Assembly: GCA_016214445.1 (NCBI GenBank)
Contig: JACROM010000132.1
Span: forward strand, 1-15,860
Origin: Microcaldota archaeon
Lineage (GTDB): Archaea > Micrarchaeota > Micrarchaeia > Norongarragalinales > Norongarragalinaceae
DNA: 15,860 nt
Reading direction: 5' to 3'
Shown here: positions 3,377-15,860 of the stretch, one piece after another
How positions within the stretch are numbered: the first letter of the stretch is position 1
How the letters are laid out: each line of letters starts with the position of its first letter
Program-made: the position numbers and the translations under genes
The notes under the pieces: model-generated
What the model was told of the DNA's origin: nothing
The model's database searches: none
What the model saw: only the letters and a program-made list of their open reading frames with translations

Positions 3377-3486
3377 TTTGGTGGTTCGATTCGCCATTGT
3401 CGAGGCACACCATAGTCCACCGTAACTCTGATTCGTCCGTTTTATTAAACTCGGCCAACCATACTCTTCACAAGAAGGTGATTCAG

Positions 3487-3726
3487 TTGTCATTAGAGGA
3501 AACCATTTCAGAATTAGAGAAGGAATTGACCGCCAAGGAGAAGAGGCAGGACGAGGTCCTGCAGAAGAGCCGCGAGGTAATCCGCTCGTGCGCCAAGGCA
3601 ATCCGCCACATCCATACCGAAGACTACGCGGAAGCGGAAAAGCTGGCTGAAGAGTTGGATTCCGAAGTGAAGAAGCTTGCCAAGGTAGCCGGCGAGGACT
3701 TCCACCACATCGCCCAGAACGCCTAA
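3487..3726 (+). CDS. Translin-family protein, N-terminal part (ends at in-frame TAA)
   Basis: Translin/TRAX-family proteins bind RNA and ssDNA and form the C3PO ribonuclease; archaea carry a single ~190-200 aa homologue. This part is about 79 aa and all-helical: LEETISELEKELTAKEKR, then the conserved QKSREVIRSCAKAIRHIH helix and a short EAEKL hairpin. The start is TTG 3487 because a strong site AAGGTGATT (3475-3483) precedes it; GTG 3478 is an alternative, and a TTG at 3397 only adds non-conserved sequence. A TATA-like TTTATTAAA lies at 3441-3449. The frame ends at TAA 3724-3726. Downstream codons in the same frame continue the family without a gap, so this is half of a normal translin. Confidence 0.75.
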   Translation: MSLEETISELEKELTAKEKRQDEVLQKSREVIRSCAKAIRHIHTEDYAEAEKLAEELDSEVKKLAKVAGEDFHHIAQNA

Positions 3727-4044
3727 CAGGAGTACGTGGAAATCAAGGCGTTCCTTGCACTCGTAAAGAAGGAAAGCCTGCCAACTCCGGAAGAGCTGAA
3801 AATAGATGTTTTATCCTATTTGAACGGCCTGTCGGACTGCGTCGGCGAACTGCGCCGGGCGCTCCAGCTTGCCCTGAGAGCGGACAAAAAGAAGGAAGCG
3901 GAATACTTTTTCGAAAGGATGAACTACATCTACAACAACCTGATGGTCCTGAAATTCTCGAGTTCGCTTGTCGGGCCCCTGAAGAGAAAACAAGACATGG
4001 TTAGAGGACAAATCGAACAAGCTAGGAGTGAAATGTTGCGATAA
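3727..4044 (+). CDS. Translin-family protein, C-terminal part (same frame, after TAA 3724)
   Basis: This reads in the same frame as the preceding part, directly after its TAA. It begins QEYVE, the conserved E-x-x-E motif of TRAX/C3PO nucleases, and continues PTPEEL, LNGLSDCVGELRR and a C-terminal helix RKQDMVRGQIEQARSE. The D-x-x-x-E in DCVGE matches the second pair of catalytic acids of the family, so the whole predicted acidic active site lies after the stop. If translated separately, the likely start is GTG 3736 with AGGAG (3728-3732) ahead of it (102 aa); that would remove the first Glu of QEYVE. The alternatives are stop-codon readthrough, a pseudogene, or a sequencing error; TTA (Leu) to TAA is one base change. 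Confidence 0.75.
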   Translation, partial: QEYVEIKAFLALVKKESLPTPEELKIDVLSYLNGLSDCVGELRRALQLALRADKKKEAEYFFERMNYIYNNLMVLKFSSSLVGPLKRKQDMVRGQIEQARSEMLR

Positions 4045-4095: not shown

Positions 4096-4449
4096 TCAAC
4101 CCAATGCGTACAGCTTTGCAGTAAGTTTTTTTACCCTCGAGATGAATTCCTCCTTTGCCTTACCGACCTTGCGGCCCGCGAGCCTCTTTTCAACAACCAG
4201 CGGAAAGTCAACCCTGACCACGCTGGCAGCCTTCAGCACGCCTTCGGACAGGTCGCTTTGGGCCAACGCAAGTTCAAAAACGCCGCCACGCCTGACTGAA
4301 GTTACCTTCAGAACTATCATGTCAGCTGAGGAAATGTTGTAACTGCCGGGGCTCATGACAAGCGCAGGCCTCAGCTTCGAACCTTCAAAGTCCGAGAACT
4401 TGAAGTCAAGAAGGACTATATCGCCTTGCTCAAAATTCGAATAGCTCAT
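4096..4449 (-). CDS. MazF/PemK-like toxin (type II, predicted mRNA endoribonuclease)
   Basis: This 117-aa small beta-barrel protein of the MazF/PemK superfamily should cleave mRNA in the cytoplasm when not bound by its antitoxin. The N-terminal FEQGDIVLLDFKFSDFEGSKLRPALVM is the family hallmark (GDIVL, then the S-K-L-R-P-A-L-V loop that holds the catalytic Arg). A later T-S-V-R-R-G block and the LAGRKVGKAKEEF helix match the usual C-terminal half. The start is ATG 4449 with GGAGTGG upstream; GTG 4458 would add three residues. It overlaps the 3' end of the antitoxin gene by 20 nt, so the two are translationally coupled. The partner antitoxin is an RHH protein rather than a MazE (AbrB-fold). 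Confidence 0.85.
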   Translation of the reverse strand: MSYSNFEQGDIVLLDFKFSDFEGSKLRPALVMSPGSYNISSADMIVLKVTSVRRGGVFELALAQSDLSEGVLKAASVVRVDFPLVVEKRLAGRKVGKAKEEFISRVKKLTAKLYALG

Positions 4450-4627
4450 CCGCGCCACTCCAGTCCTCGACGCTTTTAGCGTAAGCGTATTGCTTGAACT
4501 CGTCCTTTTCGACTTTTTCCGCGAAATCCGCTGCTGCCCGGCGCATTACTTCAGTCCACTTTATTTCCGGGTGCTTTTTCATTAGGGCATAAAGTTCCTG
4601 CGGAACCGATAAAGTAACGTTAACCAC
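4430..4627 (-). CDS. Ribbon-helix-helix antitoxin (partner of MazF-like toxin)
   Basis: This 65-aa protein has VNVTLSVPQELYALMKKHP at the N-terminus, a typical ribbon-helix-helix strand plus first helix. KWTEVMRRAAADFAEKV forms the second helix, followed by an acidic tail ending WSGADELFEF that would wrap the toxin. RHH proteins of this type dimerise, bind operator DNA and neutralise a toxin. In archaea the same sequence type (VTLSIPEELYxxMKKHPEIKW) often goes with PIN toxins; here it overlaps a MazF-like gene. GTG 4627 is chosen because GGTGAT lies 4 nt ahead; GTG codons at 4636 and 4639 are alternatives. Confidence 0.8.
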   Translation of the reverse strand: MVNVTLSVPQELYALMKKHPEIKWTEVMRRAAADFAEKVEKDEFKQYAYAKSVEDWSGADELFEF

Positions 4628-4655
4628 ACCAATCACCACACTTATTTGCCTTATT

Positions 4656-14566: not shown

Positions 14567-15860
14567 ATGAGTTTCATCCGGAAAATCAAACGGCAAGGTC
14601 CGGCAAAAGTTCATTCGCTACCTTGGCAAAGACGTCAAAGGCAAACCGCAGAAACGCGTCTTGGAAAGTGACGTGGTGGTCAAAAGTGTCAAGCGTAGCT
14701 TGGATGTTCTCGCTATCGATGCCGTGGCCAAAGAACTCGGCGTCAACGAGATTGCTAACCGACACGTGATTGCCTTGATTTATTCGCAGTTGATGGAGCA
14801 TCGAAGTATCAACTCTCTTGAAAGCTGGATGAAGTTCACAGAAATTCCCGACGTATTGAATCTGGATGCGCCGTCGACAAAAAGCCTGTACGAATCCCTA
14901 TCGGATTTTAGCCAAGGTGAGTTTGATTTGTTGAACTTACGCCTTTTGGATAAATTTCGGGAGGTCGAACCGTTGGAGGAAGCGGCCGTCATTGATGTGA
15001 CGGACACGTATCTGGAAGGAAAAAACATTTCCATAAGACGACGGCGTGGAAAGGAAGGCAAGGTTCGCAAACTAATCCAATTGGGGTTGGCGGTGAGTTT
15101 TCAGAACGGTTTTCCGTTGTGTTACAAGCAATACCATGGCAATCTGAACAACACGCAAATTTTCAAGGACATGGTGTTGACTTTACGAGGGCAAAATCGC
15201 AAATGCGTCATCATGGATCGGGGCATGTCATCGGATGAAAACATCAAACTTGCACACCATTTGAACGCCGGGGTGATTGCAGGCTTACGGAAGACGAGCG
15301 CCCTAGAAAAGAAATTTCTTGAACCGATTGACCGTTCGGAAATTTATTCGCGTCAACATCGGGTCGTTCTGAAAAATACGACGGTGTTCGTCAAGGGTTT
15401 CGTGTTTGGCAAGGGTCGGTTATTGGTGGTTTACAATCCGATGTTGGAGGCGGTAAAGCGTGAAAAGGCTTTCCGGAAGAAGGGCGATTCGGATGACGTT
15501 TACGCGGGCTATTCTCTTGTTTATCATAACACCGAGTACACCGATGAAGTGGTTGTAAAAAAATATTACGAAAAGGATATCGTGGAGCGGGCGTTCAAGC
15601 AGATGAAAGGTGTGCTCAAGCTTCGTCCGATTCGCGTTTGGCTGGAAGAACATGTGGAGACGCACGTACGGATTTGTTATCTTGCGTACGCGATTCTTGC
15701 GTACATGAATTTTAAACTCGCGGCCAAGTCATCGGCGGTGCAGGCGTTGGCATCTTTGCGGCATGGTTATCGCGTGTGTTTGGGTGTGAAAAGTAATTCG
15801 GATGCGTGGTCGGTTTTTGTTCCGTTGGAGCCGCATCAAATCGATATCCTTAAGACATTA
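14567..15860 (+). CDS. IS1634-like transposase, frameshifted at the start, partial at window end
   Basis: From 14571 one frame stays open to the window end, about 430 codons with no stop. It reads NGKVRQKFIRYLGKD (typical N-terminal part of the family), then VIDVTDTYLEG (first Asp), VIMDRGMSSDENI (second Asp) and KYYEKDIVERAFKQMKGVLKLRPIR (catalytic Glu in a Y-x2-K-x3-E-x6-K form of the IS4 signature), then a helical C-terminus. There is no ATG, GTG or TTG in this frame before TTG 14661, and a TGA closes it at 14568. ATG 14567 begins MSFIRK in a different frame; removing one base in the GAAAATC run (14581-14587) joins MSFIRK to the transposase. Either one base was gained, the original N-terminus suffered a deletion, or a +1 frameshift is used. 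The third frame in this region is a shadow. Confidence 0.8.

Follow-up and report, generated by a model that had tools for sequence, protein, structure and literature searches.

A lone in-frame TAA in the sequence of an archaeal translin/C3PO gene from a fragmented draft genome

Archaeal C3PO nucleases and the interrupted translin frame

The solved chains closest by sequence profile to the gene described here are AfTrax, of the AfC3PO of Archaeoglobus fulgidus, and NEQ131 (NeC3PO), presumably of Nanoarchaeum equitans. Both of these chains are continuous, whereas the gene studied here is crossed by a TAA. The gene also recalls the recoded archaeal genes (pyrrolysine, selenocysteine and a fucosidase frameshift), which are likewise coding sequences that seem interrupted. 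In the available part of PMC8211752, the recoding of termination described for archaea concerns selenocysteine and pyrrolysine, and the interruptions are UAG or UGA stops or a frameshift, whereas the present case is a TAA, in a single genome that shows no trace of machinery of this kind. The original prediction had already set pyrrolysine aside on the ground that TAA does not fit it, and this holds. According to the same part of PMC8211752, most interrupted genes are functional; this is a reasonable ground for not discarding the translin TAA before sequencing reads have been consulted. Neither that text nor the other literature that was looked at contained a case of archaeal UAA readthrough.

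The window, by which we mean the whole stretch of 15,860 nucleotides that was analysed, is one entire contig (C122) of a draft genome, G000. This draft comprises 1.29 Mb in 140 contigs with an estimated completeness of 72%, and is thus fragmented and incomplete. The translin frame lies on the plus strand and runs from a TTG at 3487, with a putative Shine-Dalgarno-like GGTGAT (3477-3482) at a 4-base spacing upstream, to its natural TAA stop at 4042-4044, and it is open apart from the TAA at 3724-3726. The 79 codons ahead of this stop (3487-3723) end within the third predicted helix, and codons 81-185 follow it (3727-4041). Read through, the product has 185 residues. Its TTG corresponds in the alignment to the initiator ATG of the nearest homologue (P0001), so that the two proteins align from residue 1; P0001 also has 185 residues and is 83% identical over its full length.

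The Pfam model PF01997 matched positions 3499-4017 in one frame with one TAA inside, scoring 27.9 bits against a family cut-off of 25.9 and covering profile positions 4-192 of 205. Taken alone, the C-terminal part fell just below this cut-off (23.5 bits, E=6.4e-5), and the N-terminal part gave no Translin match in the Pfam test. A profile of homologues, in which one of the 53 rows is the window's own read-through protein, matched 3490-4041 with E=2.6e-85. Given these two matches, the translin frame across the TAA is not due to chance, and the original prediction that the two halves share one frame and form a translin/C3PO is borne out.

A protein search returned 148 homologues at E<=0.001, the best 120 of which were listed. 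One of these (P0019, with 2 member sequences) is the window's own restart frame, a mechanically called open reading frame of 102 residues from GTG 3736 to 4044, so that 119 homologues remained for alignment. E82 (3730-3732) and E85 (3739-3741), forming an E-x-x-E motif, and D117 (3835-3837) and E121 (3847-3849), forming D-x-x-x-E, were invariant in 119/119 aligned homologues and aligned with AfTrax in the profile comparison; we take these four to be the catalytic residues. The alignment agrees with the prediction that the stop sits just ahead of the first motif, with the second one following: QEYVE comes directly after the TAA, which stands two codons before E82, and DCVGE lies further downstream.

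The predicted structure of the read-through chain (pLDDT 96.9, pTM 0.89) has the all-helical translin fold. Its best match in the Protein Data Bank (PDB) was AfC3PO (PDB IDs 3zc1 and 3zc0), with a TM score of 0.91 over 182 columns, an rmsd of 1.6 and about 31% identity in the structural alignment. AfTrax is alike in family, length and the positions of both acidic motifs (profile E=4.7e-31, 111 bits). NeC3PO (PDB IDs 5jr9, 5jrc and 5jre) has the same fold (TM 0.88-0.90) and equal motif spacing, and with a profile score of 65 bits against 111 for AfTrax it is more distant. Judged by its sequence, the gene is an ordinary, conserved archaeal translin/C3PO encoding a putative RNA-cutting nuclease; what it lacks, in the sequence as given, is the one continuous frame of the family. 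More remote translin homologues, 32-34% identical, were seen on two contigs labelled as bacterial metagenome-assembled genomes (MAGs) of Zipacnadia and Chloroflexi (L032, 5946-6500; L033, 6001-6555), and represent either misbinning or gene transfer.

The TAA site among relatives

The fourteen nearest homologues (P0001-P0014; the named ones from Candidatus Micrarchaeota) are uninterrupted translins, 60-83% identical over 99-100% of their length, and all of them have Tyr at position 80, where the window has its stop. Over the 119 homologues, this column holds Tyr in 72, Leu in 25, Phe in 11, Met in 7, Glu in 2 and Gln and Pro in one each. At the DNA level, a codon could be read at the site in 50 of 52 loci of relatives, a set in which L027 and L031 apparently represent one and the same stretch of contig and a small number of distant alignments may be shifted by one residue; none of the 50 was a stop and 23 were Tyr codons, which in the three loci of highest similarity (G001, G008 and G010) read TAC. 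It had been proposed that the stop arose from a TTA codon by one base change. This route was rejected for the near relatives: Leu does occur in the column, but as the nearest relatives carry Tyr codons, no TTA ancestor is supported. Moreover, the AGGAG at 3728-3732, which had been taken to indicate a second start, is coding sequence, namely the CAG GAG of a conserved Gln-Glu pair. At the same place 37 of the 50 loci carry a like hexamer (CAGGAG in 11, CAGGAA in 26), none of them with a stop at the site.

Three overlapping sets of genomes were searched for the stop. In a set of 40 genomes, made up of 39 relatives plus that of the window, 31 had a translin match, and the stop was present in the window's genome alone, the other 30 being stop-free. 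The same result was obtained for 11 genomes of the same family, 9 of them with a match. In the class, 255 of 295 genomes had a translin match, and 16 of the 150 matches listed showed a stop, one of these being the window. The other 15, all from one family (f18), suggested a recurrent interruption; this was rejected on inspection of all 15 loci and 5 stop-free ones, since these proteins stop a little short of the profile end, the stops being natural gene ends. With these terminal stops excluded, none of the 149 other listed matches contained an internal stop. The comparison with close relatives that the original prediction had called for gives 0/50 loci with a stop, and among the relatives checked the stop looks private to the window's genome.

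We also looked for signs of decay in the rest of the protein. Apart from the TAA site, the window protein deviated at 0/35 columns with a conservation of at least 90%, and it held no residue unseen among the homologues. The 117 other homologues in this comparison, from which P0019, P0082 and P0104 had been dropped as self or partial, had a median of 1 deviation. As zero deviations are common to several other near relatives, this is a normal state and not a special one. The terminal branch was 0.178 for the window against 0.082 for its sister P0001, and a relative-rate count gave an excess on the window side with one of five outgroups (16 vs 5, p=0.027) and no significant excess with the other four (p 0.24 to 1.0). 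Such conservation, lasting until now or until shortly before, agrees with either an error or a mutation of very recent date.

Disruptions elsewhere in the draft and in its sisters

A lone in-frame stop in a fragmented metagenome assembly has to be weighed against the disruptions in the same and sister assemblies before recoding or splitting is considered. For this, 61 contigs of G000 (539,382 bases) were compared with stretches of two relatives, the sister genome G001 (631,307 bases) and G008 (359,019 bases), yielding for G000 240 matches and 65,026 aligned codons. Stops at least 20 residues from the ends of matches numbered 16 in G000, 15 in G001 (74,296 codons) and 17 in G008 (56,940 codons). 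When only those with both flanks well matched by identity were counted, two were left in G000, one in G001 and none in G008. The 14 others in G000 fell in four matches, in which a flank was weak or in the wrong frame. In G001 and G008, three stops with at least 10/20 identical residues on both sides (L101 14751, L184 14603 and L180 14225) were taken as lying in shadow frames, being located inside longer open frames of 488, 362 and 207 residues, respectively, in another frame or strand; the remaining stops there were dropped on flank identity. Initial disruption counts were too high, since they took in antisense and shadow frames, 5' extensions ahead of gene starts and the N gap of L042.

Of the two lone stops of G000, one is the translin TAA; the other is a TGA in a gene of the Na/H-exchanger family (PF00999) on the minus strand of L076 (G000:C27, around 5569), at a position occupied by Gly in relatives. 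This TGA was the only stop among strong matches to that gene across the 11 family genomes; in G001, a TAA is present in a weakly scoring match of 26 bits. The one in G001 is a TAG in the aIF5B gene (L101, G001:C6, around 11653); the 8 other family genomes in which the gene is well matched lack it, and G006 and G010 match only weakly. Since aIF5B is taken to be essential, this TAG is most easily explained as an error. The lone stops are thus of three types (TAA, TGA and TAG) at three residues (Tyr, Gly and Leu), and do not look like a change of code. A literature search for error-borne stops in MAGs found no papers.

Frameshift-like places were found at 5 positions of G000 when its first 41 contigs were compared with G001, one of them over an N gap, and at 2 positions of G001 in the reverse comparison. 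Judged against G001 alone, the breaks affect, among others, a SecD-like gene (L071, around 8210) and an Obg-like GTPase gene (L043, around 15388-15426), the families of these two being assigned by Pfam on the G001 copies. A gene of the eRF1/Pelota family (L115, around 1500-1760) seems, tentatively, to lose its N-terminus: the matched N-terminus is missing in its frame, and the upstream piece has no Pfam match. Either faulty assembly or real change may account for the SecD-like, GTPase and other breaks. In the same draft, a secretion-ATPase-like gene (T2SSE; L072, 1443-4298, minus strand) has an in-frame insertion that includes an intein splicing domain (PF14890) and is absent from the matched copy in G001.

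Possible origins of the TAA

The original prediction listed readthrough, a recent nonsense mutation and a sequence error. The list was right, and the evidence favours the last two, readthrough being left almost without positive evidence. The likeliest cause, which we favour without great assurance, is an error in the consensus or a base from a minor strain, because no decay is seen elsewhere in the gene and other lone disruptions occur in these drafts. One wrong or minority base in the assembled sequence would thus read as an in-frame TAA in an ordinary translin/C3PO gene, which would probably be intact in most cells of the population and make the usual, predicted all-helical RNA-binding nuclease. 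The stop-free relatives, the fragmented state of the draft and the disruptions in G000 and G001 would all support such an origin. Against it, two lone stops in 65,026 codons do not amount to an extreme error rate, and real changes could underlie the other breaks; the control for frameshifts is not clean (5 places in G000 against 2 in G001), and the window contains no N, its Pfam-matched genes looking whole except for a transposase gene cut by the contig end. A recent, real nonsense mutation, by which translation would end after 79 codons and translin activity would be lost with the remainder not yet decayed, is a substantial possibility to which we nevertheless give less credit. A Tyr codon becomes TAA by one base change, and the gene is missing from part of the class, a translin match being absent from 40/295 genomes, from 8 of the 96 with a completeness of 90% or more and a contamination of 5% or less, and from 2 of the 11 of the same family, both incomplete. 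The longer terminal branch and the rate excess with one outgroup would also agree with loss, but the other four outgroups give no significant excess, the conserved columns show no relaxed constraint, and the disrupted SecD-like and GTPase genes of the same draft point to sequence quality.

The TAA is probably not the mark of a new mechanism. Functional readthrough, in which a tRNA would decode UAA part of the time and yield a short N-terminal piece along with full-length C3PO, is improbable. The frame is open and conserved on both sides of the TAA, and the base after it is C, a leaky context in other organisms. However, a stop conserved at the site, as expected for programmed readthrough, was found in 0/50 loci, and all 30 relatives with a match were stop-free; the 121 nt from 3715 formed no RNA structure better than shuffled sequences (z = -0.06), and no UUA anticodon was present among the 3 typed of the 5 tRNAs found, a weak test with so few tRNAs. 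Nor does termination itself appear altered. The aRF1 of G000 contains NIKS, YRCESVF and GGQ, the usual functional motifs of this factor, and in a 41-contig sample of G000 frames matched to G001, 117 of 120 terminal stops could be read, as TGA in 49, TAG in 38 and TAA in 30; these are stop-to-stop frames, some of which may not be genes. After filtering for at least 45% identity and at most one interior stop (169 of the 240 matches, 44,881 codons), 1 of 1,128 aligned Tyr sites was a stop in G000, that of translin, and the antiporter TGA was the sole other interior stop. To this may be added that the archaeal cases named in the available part of PMC8211752 concern selenocysteine and pyrrolysine. 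A more elaborate version, in which UAA readthrough would be programmed in this lineage, giving an N-terminal helical fragment and the full-length nuclease, with termination tuning the nuclease dose, is very improbable. Should the TAA be real and a full-length protein be detected, the gene would be an unusual archaeal example of UAA readthrough. That TAA is read as an amino acid throughout the genome is hardly credible: a single in-frame TAA is all that speaks for it, and it is contradicted by the regular use of TAA as a terminal codon, the retained aRF1 motifs and the rarity of other interior stops. Recurrent in-frame TAA at one residue together with a changed release factor, the signature of reassignment, was not found in the genome sample.

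A division into two subunits, with the C-terminal part restarting at GTG 3736 and assembling with the N-terminal part, is also most improbable. It could appeal to the AGGAG 3 bases ahead of this GTG and to the open frame downstream, but that AGGAG is the coding sequence recurrent in relatives, and its spacing to the GTG is short. As the original prediction had argued, the restart would lose the first catalytic Glu, since E82 lies outside the restart frame, and with it the two N-terminal helices. Moreover, the TAA falls inside a predicted helix (residues 73-93), which makes a split unlikely. A split translin would be expected to divide in a loop, to have its own starts and to be conserved in relatives, and here the break is in a helix, E82 is lost and the arrangement was not seen in the relatives checked. 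Apart from P0019, no split-translin part is known among the 120 listed of the 148 homologues, a set in which parts shorter than about 102 residues could not appear; the short homologues P0082 and P0104 come from short contigs.

Several other genes were recognized in the window. Two FtsZ genes are arranged in tandem at 175-2532. A MazF/PemK-like toxin gene (PF02452) is located on the minus strand at 4096-4639, and a small gene that overlaps it upstream and has no Pfam match is, by its position, probably the antitoxin. A PIN-domain gene (PF01850; 6205-6970, minus strand) likewise overlaps a small gene upstream that has no Pfam match, the two possibly forming a VapBC-like pair. Finally, a DDE transposase gene (PF01609; 14661-15860) runs off the end of the contig.
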